NCBI GenBank assembly: GCA_017987115.1
Contig: JAGNUG010000024.1
Coordinates: forward strand, 1 to 38,980
Direction: 5' to 3'
Source of the DNA: Flavobacteriales bacterium
GTDB taxonomy: Bacteria > Bacteroidota > Bacteroidia > Flavobacteriales_F > PHOS-HE28
DNA: 38,980 nucleotides
The notes under the pieces were generated by a model. The model saw only the letters and a program-made list of their open reading frames with translations. It searched no databases and had not been told where the DNA came from. Positions within the stretch are counted from its first letter, which is position 1. Each line of letters begins with the position of its first letter. A program made the translations under genes and the position numbers. Below are positions 1-38,649 of this stretch, one piece after another.

Positions 1-665
1 GTATATAGCAACAATGCATTCGGCCATCCCGGTAGCGGGCGTGATACCGCTTCTATAACCTACACCTACGATGAGGCCGATCGTGTAACGCAACGTATGC
101 GCAATGACCTTGGTGCCATTATTCCTACACCATCGACTATGGCGTTCATGGCCTGCCCGAACGCGAAACCTATTCGCGTATCGAGAACCTTGGCACCGAC
201 AGGTATAATGTGATCCCCGGCGAGGTTACAGTGATCAGTGATGAACGCTACCGCTACGCTATGCAAAGCGATACCTTGACCAAAAAGATATTCCTGAACA
301 ATCTGGACCTACCCTACCGCGAACAATTACTTGCAAAGGATAAGAACGGTTACCTGCTCACCATCGAGGATGTGTATCTGATGAGCAACAAACGCGCGCG
401 CATCACTTTCACCTACGACGATAAAGGACGGCTCGCCGAACGCCTTGAACAACCCGATATCGGTTGGTTGCATTCCAAGAAACATACGTACACGTATGAC
501 AACGTTGGCAATCTGATGCGAGCGATCCTTTGGAAGGACAATGTGCAAAAAGAAATTACCGAATACCTGTATGAAGAAGTTTCCATGACGCTAAGCGCAC
601 GCATAACCAAGGACATGGAAACGGGACATATGAATATCGTGAAGTACGTAACTGAGAGGAAGTAG
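1..665 (+). CDS. YD-repeat (RHS-like) protein, 3' part with apparent frameshift
   Basis: The gene enters from the left edge, so only its C-terminal part is visible. Frame 1 from base 1 reads a typical YD repeat (TYTYDEADRVTQRM). From about base 126 the coding sense continues in frame 3 (YTIDYGVHGLPERETYS) and runs to the stop at 663-665, with two more YD repeats (FTYDDKGRLAERL and YTYDNVGNLMRAI). The join at about 118-126 implies one missing base. A GTG at 210 could give a 151-residue product, but that would start in the middle of a repeat, so it is probably not the real start. YD-repeat proteins are surface-exposed or secreted beta-shell proteins. The visible end has no polymorphic toxin domain and no T9SS sorting domain. 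Whether the frameshift is real or a sequencing error cannot be decided here. Confidence 0.6.
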
Positions 666-666
666 T

Positions 667-690
667 AGTTGGCAGTTGGCAGTTGGCAGG
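667..690. repeat. short tandem repeat, unit GTTGGCA
   Basis: Directly after the YD-repeat gene the heptamer GTTGGCA occurs three times in tandem (AGTTGGCAGTTGGCAGTTGG), and a related CAATTGGCAG follows at 701-710. It is noncoding and lies between two genes. It may be a dispersed intergenic repeat or replication-slippage debris. Confidence 0.6.
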
Positions 691-730
691 AAGCAAGAGG
701 CAATTGGCAGTTCGTTGAATCGTTCGAAAG

Positions 731-1231
731 ATGAGAGTATTGTTCTGTTTTATTGTTCTATTATTCGTTGGGGAACTGAATGCGCAAAGCGCGATCGTGC
801 ATTGGGCGTATGGGCCATTCGGGACCATGGGCGATGCTGCATACATCTTGGAGAACGACCGGATCTACCAAGCCTGTGGTCCCTTCGGAGAGAAAGGTGC
901 ATGCCTATTCGTGTTCGATGAAACACAAGTGTTCCGCAGCTCGGATGCTTTCGGTAGAAAAGGCACCGGCGTTTACCTTATGGAAGGCGATAACTTCTAC
1001 CGGTGTACAGGAACATTCTGCACCAAAGGACCTTGCGCGTTGCTCATGGAAGGCAACAAGATCTATCGCGGTGATGGCGCATTCTGTGCCAAGAACAGCG
1101 GTGCATTCTTCATAGAAGGCAACACCATATTCTTAGCCGAAGGCCCATTAGCAAGCAAGACCGATGCGATCCTACAGACCAAAGGAAATGTACCCCTGGT
1201 TGCGTTGCTGGCGATAATGGCGGGGTTGTGA
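731..1231 (+). CDS. secreted protein of six exact 22-residue repeats
   Basis: 166 residues. Residues 1-19 form a signal peptide (MRVLFCFIVLLFVGELNAQ). Six consecutive segments of exactly 22 residues follow with no insertions or deletions. The consensus is roughly xGxFxxKGxxxxxxEGNxIYRx. Unit starts include YGPFGTMGD, CGPFGEKGA, SDAFGRKGT, TGTFCTKGP, DGAFCAKNS and EGPLASKTD. Alternating hydrophobic positions and regular glycines suggest short beta-strands and turns, so a closed beta-repeat fold such as a small propeller or 'beta-flower' is a reasonable guess. I do not recognise the family with certainty. The last residues after repeat 6 (VALLAIMAGL) look out of frame with the T9SS tail remnant that follows in frame 1, so the protein may have been longer. 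Confidence 0.8.
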   Translation: MRVLFCFIVLLFVGELNAQSAIVHWAYGPFGTMGDAAYILENDRIYQACGPFGEKGACLFVFDETQVFRSSDAFGRKGTGVYLMEGDNFYRCTGTFCTKGPCALLMEGNKIYRGDGAFCAKNSGAFFIEGNTIFLAEGPLASKTDAILQTKGNVPLVALLAIMAGL

Positions 1232-1359: not shown

Positions 1360-2046
1360 CTACCCCTTCTTCCCCATGCCAACATTCGCGGCCTTGCCGT
1401 AATCCGGCACCAAGTATGCGAGGTCATCGAAAGCTTCTGCAGCGTAGCGCTTTTCCGCTGCTACGAACATGTATTTGGCGCTGGGCGTAATGCCTTGTAG
1501 AAAGGTGATGTTCTTGTTGCCGTTCCATAGCTCAGCGGCTTTGTCCGCACCATCGCCGAAGACCATGCGTTCGTTAGGTTCAGCGGCCCATGCAGCGTCC
1601 AAGATCAATGGTGCGGCTGGTGCCAATGGTTGCAATTCCGGTGAGTAAGGTTGAGCGAAAACTTCCATGCGGCGTGCATCCACCATCGGCCATAATTCGG
1701 CGTTACGCACTTGCGAATGGATCAATGCCCCTTGTGCCAAGGTGCCCAATGTACTGAGACCGATCACCGGGATATCCAACGCATAACACAATCCTTTTGC
1801 AGCAGATAGACCAATGCGCAGACCGGTGTAGGATCCGGGACCGATACCAACCGCAACTGCATCCAATTCCTGCAACGTGCACCCGACTTCTTGCATCACC
1901 TCTTCGATGAATACGTTCAACTTTTCGGCGTGTGCATTCGTCGTTGGGTCACTCTCACGGATGGCCAGCAATTTGCCATCACGCGCTACGGCCACGCTGC
2001 ACAACTTCGTCGCTGTCTCTATTGCAAGGATCAATGCCACGATCAC
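1360..2046 (-). CDS. tsaB: tRNA threonylcarbamoyladenosine biosynthesis protein TsaB
   Basis: 228 residues, the usual TsaB length. TsaB is the non-catalytic partner of TsaD in the complex that makes N6-threonylcarbamoyladenosine at position 37 of ANN-decoding tRNAs, in the cytoplasm. The N-terminal ASKHA-type strand ILAIETATKLCSVAV and the hallmark GIGPGSYTGLRIGLSAAKGL are present, followed by the MVDARRMEVFA segment typical of TsaB. The C-terminal half is shorter than in TsaD and lacks its metal-binding His pair, which distinguishes the two. The frame opens with GTG at 2046, overlapping the upstream tolC-like stop as GTGA. A second GTG at 2040 would give MALILAIET, which matches the family N-terminus better and is a credible alternative start. 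It is the last gene of the minus-strand run that starts at metH. Confidence 0.93.
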   Translation of the reverse strand: MIVALILAIETATKLCSVAVARDGKLLAIRESDPTTNAHAEKLNVFIEEVMQEVGCTLQELDAVAVGIGPGSYTGLRIGLSAAKGLCYALDIPVIGLSTLGTLAQGALIHSQVRNAELWPMVDARRMEVFAQPYSPELQPLAPAAPLILDAAWAAEPNERMVFGDGADKAAELWNGNKNITFLQGITPSAKYMFVAAEKRYAAEAFDDLAYLVPDYGKAANVGMGKKG

Positions 2047-4850: not shown

Positions 4851-7568
4851 CTATCCGTATGCCAAGTTGCTACCCAACCAGCGCTCCATCCAAGCTTGAT
4901 CCTGCCCTTTTCTGGCGGCCATATCCGCTATCTGATCGGCGGACACTTTACCAACGCCAAAATACTTACTCTTCGGATGTGCGAAATAGAAACCGCTTAC
5001 TGCTGCCGTTGGCCACATGGCCAATCCTTCAGTGAGTTTGATACCTGTATGCTTCTCTGCTTCCAGCAACCTGAACAGTTCGGGTTTTTCGGTATGGTCC
5101 GGGCAAGCCGGATAGCCCGGTGCCGGCCGGATCCCGGTGTATTTTTCCTTGATCAGTTCATCATTGTTGAGCTGCTCTTTCTGTGCATAACCCCAGATCT
5201 CCTTCCGGACGGTTTCATGAAGCTTCTCAGCGAACGCTTCCGCTAAACGATCGGCCAGTGCTTTCAATAGGATCGCATTGTAATCGTCGTGTGCTTCCTC
5301 AAATCGCTTCACACGTTCATCAACGCCATGGCCCGTGGTAACCGCAAAACCACCCATCATATCCGGAGCCACATCCTTTGGGGCAACGAAGTCAGCAAGA
5401 GCGATGTAAGGCACACCGGGTGCCTTTTTGCTCTGTTGTCGCATCGTCTGATAACGACCAATTACTTTACTGCGTGAAGCATCCGCGTAGAGCTCAATAT
5501 CGTCGTCATTCACCGAATTAGCGTGCCAGATCGCAGCTACACCATGGGCTTGCAACCATTTCTCCTTTACGATGCGATCCAACATGGCAAGCGCATCGGA
5601 ATGCAGTTTCGTGGCGTGCTCCCCGACCAGTTCATCGTTCAATATTGCAGGGAATTTTCCAGCAAGCTCCCACGCCATGAAGAACGGTGTCCAATCGATA
5701 TATGGGATCAACTGATCGATCGGGAAATTCCGGAATTGGAATACCCCTGTGCTTTTGGCCAATACCGGTGGTTCGGTCTTCCAGTCGATGATGAACTTCT
5801 TTTCACGGGCTTCACTGATCGGTATGTACTCCTTGGCCCGTTGGCTGTTCTCGTAGTGCGTGCGAACCTGTTCGTATTCAGCCTTGATCTCCTTCACGAA
5901 ATTGGTGCGCTCATTCTTACTGAGCAATTTGCTCACAGCCGGAACGGATCTACTCGCATCGATGACATGTACCACCGGTTGACTGTAATGCGGTTCAATG
6001 CGCACAGCGGTATGCACGCGGCTTGTTGTTGCACCACCGATCATTAACGGAATGGTAAATTTCTCGCGCTCCATTTCCTTGGCCACATGGACCATTTCAT
6101 CCAACGATGGCGTGATCAATCCACTCAACCCGATAATGTCCACCTGCATCTCTTTGGCGGTCTTAAGGATCGTGGCACTTTGTACCATAACGCCGAGGTC
6201 GATCACCTGCCAACCGTTGCATGCGAGGATCACACCGACGATGTTCTTGCCAATATCATGGACATCGCCTTTCACGGTCGCAAGCAGGACCTTTGGCGCA
6301 CCTTCCGCGCGTGTTCCCAGAATAACTCCTTCCTGTTTTGGAGCAAGCGCATCCTTTTCTTTCTTGGCCTGCAGGAAAGGTTCCAAATACGCAACTGCAC
6401 GTTTCATTACGCGCGCACTCTTAACCACTTGCGGTAAGAACATTTTCCCGGACCCGAACAGATCACCGACCACGTTCATACCCGCCATCAACGGACCTTC
6501 GATCACTTTTACCGGATCCTCCATTGCAAGGCGGGCTTCTTCCGTATCGATCTCAATGAATTCCGTAATACCATGTACCAATGCATGTTTCAAACGTTCC
6601 GCCACGTCACCTTCGCGCCAAGCGGCCTGCTGTGCTATCACTTCCGCAGTTGGTGCTGCTTTGAATTTCTCCGCGAAGGTCACCATGCGTTCCGTAGCAT
6701 CGGGCCTACGCGCTAACAACACATCTTCCACATGTTCCAACAGGTCTTTTGGAATGTCATCGTACACACCGATCTGACCCGCGTTCACAATGCCCATGTC
6801 CATTCCTGCTTGAATTGCGTGGTACAGAAATGCTGTGTGTATCGCTTCGCGAACGGGTTCATTCCCACGGAAGCTGAAACTCACATTGCTCACGCCTCCG
6901 CTCACCAAAACACCGGGCAGATTCTTCTTGATCCATTTCACCGCTTCGATGTATTCGATGGCATAGCGATCGTGCTCGCTCATACCCGTCGCCACCGTTA
7001 GAATGTTCGGATCGATGATGATATCGTGCGGTGGAAATCCTGCCTTTTTCGTGAGCAGATCGTACACACGCTGTGCGATCTGGATCCTGCGTTCGTAATT
7101 GTCCGCCTGACCTTGCTCATCAAAACACATTACAACAACGGCAGCGCCTAGCCGACGAACGATCTTGGCCTGACGCAGGAATTCCTCCTCCCCTTCCTTC
7201 AGACTGATACTGTTCGCAATGCCTTTGCCCTGCAAACATTTCAAGCCAGCTTCGATCACGCTGAACTTACTGCTATCCACCATCACCGGAACTCGTGCAA
7301 TGTCCGGTTCGGCAGCGATCAGGTTGAGCAACTTGGTCATGGCCTGCACGCCATCGATCAAGCCTTCATCCATGTTCACGTCGATGACCTGGGCGCCATT
7401 CTCCACTTGTTGACGAGCCACTTCGACTGCTTTGTCGTAGTCGCCGGCTTTGATCAGTTTGCGAAATGCAGCACTACCAGTAACGTTCGTGCGTTCGCCG
7501 ATGTTAACGAAGTTGGCACCTTTGAATATGCGGAGTGGCTCAAGGCCGGAGTAATTTGGAATGGACAT
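4851..7568 (-). CDS. metH: methionine synthase, folate / B12 / activation half
   Basis: 905 residues from ATG 7568 ([12 protein letters not shown]); a longer frame to TTG 7589 is unlikely. The visible domains are a pterin-binding domain ([26 protein letters not shown]), a helical B12 cap domain (about 330-415), a cobalamin domain with [13 protein letters not shown] (the His that ligates cobalt is about residue 437) and a C-terminal AdoMet activation domain (about 590-905; [30 protein letters not shown]). It transfers a methyl group from methyltetrahydrofolate through cobalamin to homocysteine. It lacks the N-terminal homocysteine domain, which is supplied by the gene immediately upstream. The two-gene arrangement is known in Bacteroidota, so it is normal and not a disruption. 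Regulation is presumably by the SAM riboswitch upstream of the pair. Confidence 0.96.
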
Positions 7569-7605
7569 TTTGATCAGACAATCAGACAATTAGAAAATCA
7601 GATGC

Positions 7606-8607
7606 TCAAGAAAGGACAACCTGCTTTCTTGGTTCGTGCTTTGCGGCTTCTTTGGCCAATGCCGCTATGTGCTGTGGTGTAGTTCCGCAGCAACCACCAA
7701 TGATATTCAACCAGCCTTCTGACATGAACTCGCCTACAAGCTTCGCAGTGACCTCTGGGCTTTCGCGGTACTCACCCATTTGATCGGGTAGGCCTGCGTT
7801 CGGATAAACACTTACGCGGCAATTGGCCTGCTCGGCTATCGCTTCCAAATAGGGACGCATCTGGGCTGCACCTAACGCGCAATTCAACCCCATGCTGAAG
7901 AGTTTCACATGTGCCATGCTGATCATGAACGCATCGATCGTCTGTCCGCTCAGTGTTCTGCCGCTCGCGTCCGTGATGGTTACGCTGCACATGATCGGTA
8001 CGCGTTCGTTCCGCTTCTCGAAGACCTCTTCTATCGCATAGAATGCAGCTTTAGCATTGAGCGTATCGAAGATGGTCTCCACCAACAGCACATCCACACC
8101 ACCTTCCAACAACGCATCCACTTGCTCGCTGTATGCTGCTACCAATTGATCGAACGTCACAGCTCTGAATCCGGGATCATTCACATCCGGGCTCAAGGAT
8201 GCGGTCTTGTTCATTGGACCGATGGCCCCCGCCACAAATCGCGGTCTGGTTGGATCCAGCGCCGCGTATTTCGCACACGCTTCTTTAGCCAATTGCGCCG
8301 ATCGGATGTTCAACTCGCGAACCAGATGTTCGCACTTGTGCTCTGCTTGTGCAATGGTGGTAGCACTGAATGTATTGGTCTCCACGATGTCGGCACCGGC
8401 CTCCAAGTATTCTTCGTGGATCTTACGAATGGCATCTGGTTTTGAAAGCGAGAGCAATTCGTTGTTGCCTTGCAAGAGGATGTCATGGTCTTCCATTCCC
8501 GGTGGATGAAAGTCCTGTTCGGTAAGTCCCAGTCGCTGGATCATGGTGCCCATGGCGCCATCCAAAATGAGGATTCGTTCTTGGGCAAGTTCTTCGATGT
8601 TCTTCAT
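7606..8607 (-). CDS. metH: methionine synthase, homocysteine-binding half
   Basis: 333 residues starting at ATG 8607. This is a homocysteine S-methyltransferase (pfam02574-type) TIM barrel. It begins with [19 protein letters not shown] and carries the zinc-ligating cysteines, one in MGLNCALGA and a pair in [13 protein letters not shown]. It binds and activates homocysteine as the zinc thiolate and works with the B12 and folate domains of the next gene, 37 bases downstream (7569-7605). That gap contains short CAGACAAT repeats. Length and content match the N-terminal module of E. coli MetH, so the pair reconstitutes the full enzyme. The 5' leader holds a SAM-I riboswitch, consistent with feedback by the pathway product. 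Confidence 0.95.
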
Positions 8608-27771: not shown

Positions 27772-28749
27772 TCAATACCCACCACCACCACCCTGTCCAG
27801 CTTCGATCGGGTGCCACGTGGTCTTTACTTCCTGGGTATCGAGGATCATATATGGATCCTCGGCATCTGCTTTCATCCAATCTTTCACTTTCGGAACAAC
27901 TACACGCTTCATGTTGGTCGCACTTTCGGTATCCAACAACATGCGCTCTTCCTTGGTAGGTTGATCACAGACAACAGCATTTACATCCATATGCGAAACG
28001 AGCGGCTTCAATAACTCGCTTCGAAGACCGGTAAGCAAATTCACAACGCCACCGGGCAGATCGCTTGTAGCGAGAACTTCTGCGAAGGTTACCGCTGGCA
28101 ATGGGTGTTCTTCGCTTGCAACAACGATGCAGGCATTGCCTCCGGTAATGATCGGACCCACCATGCTGACCAAGCCGATAAGGCCACTTGAACCGGGTGC
28201 CATTACGCCAACAACCCCGGTAGGTTCGTACACACTGAAGTTGAAATGCGAACTGTTCGTCGGGTTCACGCTGCTGAAGATCGCCTGGTACTTATCGCAC
28301 CATCCTGCATAATAGACCCAACGGTCTATTGCCGCAGCAACCTCGGCTTCCGCATGCTTCCTAGTGGCTCCGTGGAGCATGAGCTCATGCACGAATTGCA
28401 CACTTCGACCTTCCAACATTTCACCAATGCGATATAGGATCTGTCCGCGATTGAACGCACTGCGACCAGCCCAACCACCAATTGCACCACGCGCTGCGAT
28501 CACACTTTCGCGCACATCCTTTCGACTGCTTCGGCACACGTTAGCCAACGGTTTTCCATCCGTGCCTTTCGGTTGATAATAACGCCCGCTTTCCGTACGT
28601 GGGAATTTACCACCGATGTAGATCTTGTACGTCTTCATCACCGGGACACGCTCCTTGCTCGCAGTAGTACCATTCGTTCCATGACCGTTCAAATCCGGCT
28701 TGGCCACTGTGTTTTTGGAGGACGTTTTCTTGGTAATGGTCTTGGACAT
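27772..28749 (-). CDS. short aldehyde dehydrogenase homologue lacking the catalytic half
   Basis: 325 residues against about 490 for active aldehyde dehydrogenases. Residues 1-36 are a Lys/Ser/Thr-rich polar tail (MSKTITKKTSSKNTVAKPDL). The ALDH N-terminal NAD-binding half follows: YIGGKFPRTESGRYYQ, the helical region EMLEGRSVQFVHELMLHG, GVMAPGSSGLIGLVSMVGPI, TGGNACIVVASEEHPLPAVT and DLPGGVVNLLTG. The conserved Lys of the 'KPSE' position is replaced (VVASEE), and the WNFP/WNYP active-site Asn is missing. The frame ends at GQGGGGGY, before the ELGGK and Cys motifs. There is no sign of frameshift or decay, so it is probably a maintained non-catalytic homologue. A full-type ALDH ends 10 kb upstream on the same strand. 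Confidence 0.85.
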   Translation of the reverse strand: MSKTITKKTSSKNTVAKPDLNGHGTNGTTASKERVPVMKTYKIYIGGKFPRTESGRYYQPKGTDGKPLANVCRSSRKDVRESVIAARGAIGGWAGRSAFNRGQILYRIGEMLEGRSVQFVHELMLHGATRKHAEAEVAAAIDRWVYYAGWCDKYQAIFSSVNPTNSSHFNFSVYEPTGVVGVMAPGSSGLIGLVSMVGPIITGGNACIVVASEEHPLPAVTFAEVLATSDLPGGVVNLLTGLRSELLKPLVSHMDVNAVVCDQPTKEERMLLDTESATNMKRVVVPKVKDWMKADAEDPYMILDTQEVKTTWHPIEAGQGGGGGY

Positions 28750-36736: not shown

Positions 36737-36951
36737 GGTGGTTGTGGTTGACTTCAAAGGTGTGAATATTGCAGTTAGACAAGAGGCAATCGGTGAGATG
36801 GGTATTCATTAATTGATTCATCTTAATTCTCTTCGTTCCTTATACGATTTAGTGGGACATGAGCCAGTTGCCTGTTCTGTCTATATTCGTAGTAACATCT
36901 TACACTGCTGGCATCGCTACTTCGGCCGTTCAATTAACATTAAGTATAGAA

Positions 36952-38649
36952 ATGAATACCAGACTCTTGATCCTGACTCTATGCTTTCCGATGCTTGTCC
37001 ATGCTCAAACTGTTCATTGGGCAAATGGCTATGGCGGACCAGATAGTGATAAGGGCAATGCGGTTGCAGTGGATACCGAAGACAATGTGCTCATAACCGG
37101 TTCTTTCAGCGACAGCTTTGAGTTAGGCACATCTGGCATAACCCTTACATCTGCTGGTGGTACGGACATCTTCGTTGCCAAGATAGGACCAGATGGAATT
37201 CTAGCTTGGGCGTTCGGAATCGGTGTTGGTGGTACATACAACGATGAAGGCAAAGGAATCGCCTCGGATGCACAAGGCAACGTGTATGTGACTGGTAGTT
37301 TTAAGGGAACGGATGTGGACTTCGACCCGGGACCGGATACCTTCCCGATGACTTCAGTGAATCAGGAGGATATATTCGTATGCAAATTCTCTCCCATTGG
37401 TGAATTGATATGGGCTTATTCCTTCGGTGGCTCATCCCCAGACCGAGGGAATGGGATCACCGTCGATGATACGGGAAATGTCTTTGTAGTTGGCCGTGTC
37501 GCAGGCACTGTTGATTTCGATCCAGGGCCGGAAAACCACTCGCTAATTACCGATACTTATGATGCATTCGTCTTGTCGGTGGATACTGATGGCAACTACC
37601 GTTGGGCGGTCAACTTTCTAGGAACCGGTGCTGATGAAGGACATGATGTTGCGTTGGATGATGCCGGTAATGTCTTTGTCTCCGGAGAATACCTTGTTGA
37701 TATTGACTTAGACCCTGGACCAAATACAGTATTCGTAGCGGATGCCGGTCCTTCTACGGATGCGTTCATTTGTAAACTGGATCCCAATGGCGAATATCTG
37801 TGGTCAGCGACATTGGCCTCCGCGGCAGGGGCTGATCAGGTACTAGCACTTGCAATAGATGATCAAGGAAATGTTTTTGGCACTGGAGAGTTTCACGGTG
37901 ATCCCCTCACCGTAGCCACTCCCTCCGATACCATCGACATACCCTACACCGGCGAAACCGATGTCTTCATAATAAAGCTCAACAACGCCGGCCCCTTGGA
38001 ATGGGCTCGAGCGATAGCTGGGCCACAAGCGCAGCACGCGTACGCTATTGCGGTTGATCAAGAAGGGTATGTGTACACCACGGGGTATGTGAATTCGAAC
38101 AGCGTAACCGACTTTGACCCTGGGCCTGAAGTGTATAACATTGCTGCTAGCAACCCGTCCTTGTTCCTGTCCGTGTTGAATTCAGCGGGGGAGTTCGAAT
38201 GCGCGAAGATTACGACATCTTCTTCGGGTTGGGACCAGGGAAACGGCATCGCATTGGACGGCGATGACAATCTTTATCTCACAGGTTATTTCAACAATAC
38301 GACTGACTTCGACCTCAGCGAAGAAGGAACCGCAGAACTTCTGACCGCAGGCACGGCAGACATATTCGTACTTAAGATGACCAGCGCTTGCTCGATAATT
38401 TTGGACATCGAAGGAATTACCTCAAGCACAATGCGAATTTCACCAAACCCTGCTGGTGAAATACTACGTGTAGAGTTATTGGACGTAAGTGGAAGGGCAA
38501 CTCTGGACATTCTCGACCTGACCGGTAAGCACGTGCTGTCCCAAACGTTAAAGTGCACGACATCAATTGTAGATGTGACAAGTCTTCAGCCAGGCATCTA
38601 CTTGATAAAAACAGATGGCCAACCACCAGTACGCTTTGTAAAAATGTAG
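36952..38649 (+). CDS. T9SS cargo protein with SBBP-type beta-propeller repeats
   Basis: 565 residues from ATG 36952, chosen for its signal peptide (MNTRLLILTLCFPMLVHAQ); the frame opens at 36859. Residues about 25-490 contain seven or so blade-like repeats of the form GIAxDxxGNVYVTGxFxGxxDFDPGP...DIFVxKxxxxGELxWA (e.g. GIASDAQGNVYVTGSFKGTD, GITVDDTGNVFVVGRVAGTV, DVALDDAGNVFVSGEYLVDI, AIAVDQEGYVYTTGYVNSNS). FDPGP or a close variant recurs at least four times. This is the SBBP (beta-propeller) family. The C-terminal T9SS domain (about 490-565) has MRISPNPAGEILRVELLDV and LQPGIYLIKTDGQPPVRFVK. Probably a surface-exposed propeller; ligand unknown. Confidence 0.88.
   Translation: MNTRLLILTLCFPMLVHAQTVHWANGYGGPDSDKGNAVAVDTEDNVLITGSFSDSFELGTSGITLTSAGGTDIFVAKIGPDGILAWAFGIGVGGTYNDEGKGIASDAQGNVYVTGSFKGTDVDFDPGPDTFPMTSVNQEDIFVCKFSPIGELIWAYSFGGSSPDRGNGITVDDTGNVFVVGRVAGTVDFDPGPENHSLITDTYDAFVLSVDTDGNYRWAVNFLGTGADEGHDVALDDAGNVFVSGEYLVDIDLDPGPNTVFVADAGPSTDAFICKLDPNGEYLWSATLASAAGADQVLALAIDDQGNVFGTGEFHGDPLTVATPSDTIDIPYTGETDVFIIKLNNAGPLEWARAIAGPQAQHAYAIAVDQEGYVYTTGYVNSNSVTDFDPGPEVYNIAASNPSLFLSVLNSAGEFECAKITTSSSGWDQGNGIALDGDDNLYLTGYFNNTTDFDLSEEGTAELLTAGTADIFVLKMTSACSIILDIEGITSSTMRISPNPAGEILRVELLDVSGRATLDILDLTGKHVLSQTLKCTTSIVDVTSLQPGIYLIKTDGQPPVRFVKM

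Follow-up and report, generated by a model that had tools for sequence, protein, structure and literature searches.

A conserved gene array with DUF255 and YD genes encodes a probable divergent six-fold beta-flower built of 22-residue units

The DNA analysed here, referred to as the window, comprises 38,980 nucleotides of contig JAGNUG010000024.1 from a Flavobacteriales bacterium. Close to its left end an open reading frame with an ATG start encodes a protein of 166 amino acids, which is preceded on the same strand by the C-terminal part of a YD/RHS-like exported sheet protein (denoted YD) and followed by a convergent gene that we take to be tsaB-like (Table 1). The gap between the YD stop and the start codon harbors three tandem GTTGGCA heptamers, the exact 22-mer of which occurs once in the genome. 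Further along the window, a methionine synthase seems to be split over two ORFs (4851-8607, minus strand), with the homocysteine S-methyltransferase part (PF02574) apart from a 912-residue ORF which, judged from its sequence, is presumably another part of the same enzyme. In the ORF at 27772-28749 (minus strand) a basic N-terminus is followed by only about half of the aldehyde dehydrogenase domain, covering positions 15-233 of the 461 in PF00171, and the product of 36859-38649 (plus strand) combines SBBP beta-propeller repeats with a Por secretion tail.

Table 1. Features at the beta-flower locus, in window coordinates.
Feature	Position	Strand	Basis or remark
YD/RHS-like exported sheet protein, C-terminal part	1..665	+	truncated at the contig edge; frame shifted near base 114
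65-nt interval from YD stop to beta-flower start	666..730	+	GTTGGCA run at 668-689
Putatively exported six-fold beta-flower-like protein, 166 aa	731..1231	+	Pfam match, alignment, predicted fold, structure comparison
Putative signal peptide, residues 1-19	731..787	+	by eye; low pLDDT there; no lipobox Cys seen
N-terminal strand, residues 21-27	791..811	+	alignment, AlphaFold2 model
Unit 1, residues 28-49	812..877	+	periodicity, unit alignment
Unit 2, residues 50-71	878..943	+	periodicity, unit alignment
Unit 3, residues 72-93	944..1009	+	periodicity, unit alignment
Unit 4, residues 94-115	1010..1075	+	periodicity, unit alignment
Unit 5, residues 116-137	1076..1141	+	periodicity, unit alignment
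Unit 6, residues 138-159	1142..1207	+	periodicity, unit alignment, AlphaFold2 model
C-terminal hydrophobic helix, residues 156-165	1196..1225	+	alignment, AlphaFold2 model
tsaB-like gene (presumed), convergent neighbour	1360..2046	-	alongside 16 of the 18 beta-flower loci examined

Six units of 22 residues each follow one another without a gap over residues 28-159. The BLOSUM62 self-similarity of the chain amounts to 1.58 at lag 22, 1.38 at lag 44 and 0.85 at lag 66, the sole further lag above 0.3 being 52 (0.33), and none of 2000 shuffles of the core reaches the lag-22 value at any lag from 8 to 49. In an alignment of 20 rows, the window included, lag 22 ranks best in 19 and second in L012, where lag 44 comes first. 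Eighteen of the 20 rows keep the register, with a core free of insertions and deletions; in the other two (L011 and L013) the first hairpin turn is longer by 6 inserted residues. The exact 22-residue periodicity proposed in the initial annotation is thereby confirmed. Its statement that the whole mature protein consists of the six units holds for the units themselves and not for the chain, which after residue 19 counts 147 residues instead of the 132 of 6 x 22 and includes a strand ahead of unit 1 and a helix at the C-terminal end. This helix and the gene array described below had gone unmentioned there.

Each unit roughly follows the pattern G-[PA]-F-[GC]-x-[KR]-G, strand, [ED]-G-[ND], second strand. 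Gln19, the segment Ala26-Tyr27-Gly28-Pro29 as well as Ala158 and Leu159 are invariant in the 20-row alignment, and three cysteines are conserved, namely Cys58 in unit 2 (20/20 rows), Cys119 in unit 5 (19/20) and Cys97 in unit 4 (18/20).

The best Pfam family for the ORF is PF21786 (Bflower_3, six-fold beta-flower, Tubby clan), which matches residues 32-159 with an E-value of 2.3e-5 at a score of 24.7 bits, below the Pfam gathering cut-off of 34 bits; a match at E<=0.1 is obtained for eight of the 20 rows. The link to accepted members of the family is provided by five distant relatives (L054-L058), which are found by the 20-row profile at E-values of 7e-9 to 3.5e-5 and themselves score 122-145 bits on PF21786. 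They contain six 20-residue units and a hydrophobic segment at the end. Alignment of this family against the distant relatives with hhalign gives a probability of 97.5 and an E-value of 7e-12 over 148 columns, for one pair of alignments in which repeats can inflate the score. The hairpin tip mostly reads [ED]-G-[ND], with Asp or Glu in 101 of 120 cells at unit position 14 and Gly in 70% at position 15; the motif of PF21786 at the hairpin tip is [DNEQ]xxG, of which the tip here may be a counterpart. When the window's own genome was searched with PF21786, ORF 731-1231 was not picked up at E<=10. Of 395 genomes of the class, 36 from 29 genera match the model at E<=1e-4 (33 over the cut-off), none of them among the 16 genomes of the window's genus within this sample. 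Searches of other collections gave a best E-value of 0.16 in NCBIfam and no match in PADLOC (E<=0.1) or PHROGs (E<=0.01), and therefore lend no support to a phage or defence role. Judged from these sequence relations, the protein, for which the initial annotation named no family, most likely belongs to PF21786 as a divergent branch of six-fold beta-flowers with 22-residue units that is missed by the curated model.

The same assignment is suggested by structure prediction. AlphaFold2 on the 20-row alignment yields a model with a mean pLDDT of 92.1 (84.9-92.1 for the five models), in which 12 strands, two per unit, are followed by the helix 156-165; the second half of unit 6 forms no strand and continues into this helix. 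The predicted fold is regular and supports the closed beta-repeat architecture guessed at the outset; the N-terminal strand would complete the barrel, and the hydrophobic helix would plug it. Six units and 12 strands, as in PF21786, are present in the prediction, and the barrel that they form is presumably closed. Superposition with VIA-align on 990 solved chains, as ranked by Foldseek, gives as best match the Tubby/scramblase-like structure 1zxu (Z 6.9, rmsd 4.6 for 109 aligned residues; next row Z 3.6). A Z of 6.9 falls where VIA-align cautions of mere common arrangements and would weigh little alone, yet it counts here because the sequence route independently reaches the same place. Foldseek found no match for the model at E<=0.001, neither in the PDB nor among viral models, and a sequence search for solved relatives gave no hit better than an E-value of 0.75. 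According to the passages on beta-flowers in Durairaj et al. (PMC10584680), Foldseek and HHPred gave no PDB similarity for those proteins either, and the structure with which the beta-flower is compared there is 1zxu, an Arabidopsis protein described as a putative scramblase of phospholipids. Taken together, the model very probably represents a six-fold beta-flower, a Tubby-like closed barrel.

A parallel beta-helix was considered as well and rejected. Rungs of parallel beta-helices usually measure about 22 residues, and PF13229 (Beta_helix) reaches 23.1 of the 25.9 bits of its cut-off and matches two of the 20 rows at E<=0.1. However, PF21786 scores better and in more rows, each unit contributes two strands to the model, which ends in a helix, and no entry titled beta-helix is found among the best 50 Foldseek and the best 39 VIA-align matches listed, which makes this fold the least probable of all the alternatives weighed here.

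The surface of the beta-flower was assessed by counting residues at each unit position over 20 rows and six units, i.e. 120 cells per position. Position 3 is aromatic in 98 and position 6 Lys or Arg in 96 cells. Within positions 2-7, a cut of our own choice on which the picture of a basic rim depends, 112 of 720 residues are Lys or Arg and a single one is acidic (Glu54 of the window). Acids flank this segment at position 8 (64/120), position 22 (41/120) and position 1 (20/120), so that positions 1-8 contain 112 basic and 85 acidic residues in 960, and positions 1-4, which are loop by DSSP in five of the six units, contain no basic and 20 acidic residues in 480. In the turns on the other side (positions 13-18), 66 of 720 residues are basic and 169 acidic. 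The protein as a whole is net acidic (-2). The petal side is hence the less acidic one and displays Phe together with Lys/Arg, without forming a purely basic rim.

The beta-flower gene is the third in an array that starts with the gene of a DUF255/thioredoxin protein, followed by YD. In all 26 loci of a profile scan, YD lies directly upstream on the same strand and encodes a product of about 300 residues, interrupted by masked bases in one locus and with a broken start in another. The beta-flower ATG overlaps the YD stop in 24 of these loci, by 4 bases in 18 and by 1 base in six; in the remaining two the genes are separated by gaps of 41 and about 153. Upstream of YD lies the DUF255 (Thioredox_DsbH) gene, and in 21 of the 24 loci that could be assessed the two share 4 bases (L022 and L026 were left out of this count and of the YD alignment). 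A further survey of adjacent genes was confounded by ORFs on the wrong strand, and the statements on neighbours are based on the other counts. A loose lipobox pattern is found on 14 of 24 DUF255 proteins, at least 4 of the 24 ORFs, one among the 14, being wrongly picked. The array is likely a functional operon. The position of a beta-flower gene as the third in an array with DUF255 and YD is new.

In the window the array is truncated, and its upstream part is found at the end of another contig of the same genome (C1, 5343 bases, L090), which carries the start of YD and a DUF255 gene sharing 59% identity with its L047 counterpart. Window positions 1-240 pair with the last 241 bases of C1 without a mismatch, and a single gap base shifts the YD frame of the window. 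Since the YD frame stays open in C1 across the site of the window's frameshift near base 114, the shift probably reflects a difference in assembly or strain. The predicted model of YD (pLDDT 90.6) resembles RHS shells in Foldseek with a best E-value of 3.2e-9 but a TM-score of 0.33, and porin- and LolA-like sheets in VIA-align with Z up to 9.8.

When 58 related genomes were searched with the protein, 20 gave a match, and each of these, the window's own genome among them, belongs to the window's genus, which is represented by 35 genomes. The 20-row profile detects the protein in 28 of 45 genus genomes and in 16 of 395 class genomes (11 in the genus, five distant), and in 395 genomes across the phylum finds the window's own only. 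The 26 loci from the profile scan of a contig collection are titled Flavobacteriales or Bacteroidota/Bacteroidetes MAGs, with one Chryseobacterium gleum; a single-protein scan of the same collection found no relative. The loci L022-L047 and the G-numbered loci are partly the same contigs and their counts are not added. No second copy is found in the window's genome at E<=10.

YD is more widespread, being present in 31 of the 35 genus genomes (the four others are 66-82% complete). The beta-flower occurs in 20, all with YD, and is absent from 15; 11 genomes contain YD without it, and the DUF255-YD pair therefore lives without the beta-flower. In 28 YD loci tested, DUF255 lies upstream in every case, the beta-flower downstream in 18 and the tsaB-like gene in 17 (L079, L089, the window and the second YD copy of G019 were left out of this set and of the tree). 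A quick tree of the 28 YD proteins has one long branch (G013) and leaves 11 of its 25 inner branches open; in it the beta-flower label changes twice as compared to a shuffled mean of 8.4, and the starred branches force only one of these changes. Nine rows lacking the beta-flower form one starred group, and G010 is alone in lacking it among beta-flower rows, its YD being followed by the tsaB-like gene. On the simplest reading, an older DUF255-YD pair would have gained the beta-flower, or lost it in one group, with a further loss in G010.

The explanation that we prefer, at a probability of roughly 0.43 for the whole, is that of a protein exported to the periplasm or cell surface, where its six hairpin petals would close into a shallow barrel around the protein's own hydrophobic C-terminal helix. 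It would be made together with YD and the DUF255 thioredoxin-domain protein and cooperate with them, and its conserved cysteines might be a target of the redox partner. Docking on a membrane or polyanion of the envelope, most simply on phospholipid head groups or LPS, would take place through the petal rim, where each of six loops offers an aromatic residue followed by Lys/Arg, and the protein would thus serve lipid binding or act as an adaptor at the membrane periphery. Taken by itself, such docking on lipid or LPS is doubtful, and our odds for it were lowered after the petal recount with its flanking acids. Against the explanation also speak the Pfam score below the cut-off, the absence of a significant Foldseek match in the PDB, the net acidic charge, the mostly Ser, Thr, Asn or Tyr petals of PF21786 members and the genus genomes in which the DUF255-YD pair lives without the beta-flower.

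The same acids beside the petal Lys/Arg would fit a mixed-charge protein surface, and with the same fold the rim might bind something other than lipid, for example the adjacent YD sheet protein, an exopolysaccharide or peptidoglycan. This is a tentative but real possibility, for which the tight coupling with the YD gene and the resemblance of the YD model to RHS shells and LolA/porin-like sheets speak, while the 11 genus genomes with YD and no beta-flower argue against it. Neither YD nor DUF255 was detected by tblastn (E<=0.01) within about 1.5 kb on each side of PF21786 members in 12 of 12 loci, a weak counter-argument given that the beta-flower itself was missed there too. A surface or matrix structural protein or adhesin without specific ligand would agree with a small, repeat-built and putatively exported chain which in the searches run is confined to part of one genus and known from metagenome genomes. 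However, the aromatic and Lys/Arg petal positions are conserved and no anchoring or C-terminal sorting domain was found by Pfam, which renders this role improbable. Given the clan-level resemblance, the protein might also behave like the Tubby-like scramblases and scramble phospholipids or transfer lipid. No catalytic or transport feature is seen, though, and the parts of Durairaj et al. (PMC10584680) concerned with beta-flowers assign them no function, so that such an activity is highly improbable.

Returning to the exported, rim-docking beta-flower, a more far-reaching version would see the three products (DUF255 redox protein, RHS/LolA-like curved sheet and Tubby-like beta-flower) as an exported module, confined to one Flavobacteriales genus, that binds or carries an anionic envelope lipid, the beta-flower having been recruited as the membrane-docking part of the older DUF255-YD pair; we consider this unlikely. 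Six-fold beta-flowers are a recently named fold for which no functional study was found in a literature search. The locus adds a new branch of this fold which lies below the curated Pfam cut-off and yet within a conserved array of overlapping genes, and thereby supplies concrete partners and a testable surface.

The beta-flower fold was named by Durairaj et al. 2023 (PMC10584680). As described there, the Tubby C-terminal or scramblase-like fold (1zxu, clan CL0395) is a 12-stranded barrel round a hydrophobic helix, and beta-flowers differ from it by a circular permutation and by shorter strands and loops. In the present protein 12 strands and a helix are likewise predicted, the helix perhaps lying inside the barrel, whereas no sequence match to the Tubby/scramblase-like fold was found. 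The five-fold beta-flower A0A494VZL1 is described in the same source as having ten strands in 96 residues, with long loops on one rim, some of them bearing Arg/Lys, and Phe at the tips, which compares with a six-fold arrangement of 12 predicted strands and Phe plus Lys/Arg petals here. The closest likeness is to PF21786, with six hairpin units, a C-terminal hydrophobic segment and, in most members, a signal peptide. Unit length varies by branch (19, 20 or 22 residues) with six units kept: 22 residues are found here as opposed to 20 in ten of 11 parsed members, in one of which lag 40 ranks highest, and 19 in one (L093), the 11 including L054 and L055 and leaving L100 unparsed. The petals of the members mostly carry Ser, Thr, Asn or Tyr, whereas those of the present branch show aromatic-x-x-[KR], and the branch is further set apart by its gene array with YD and DUF255.
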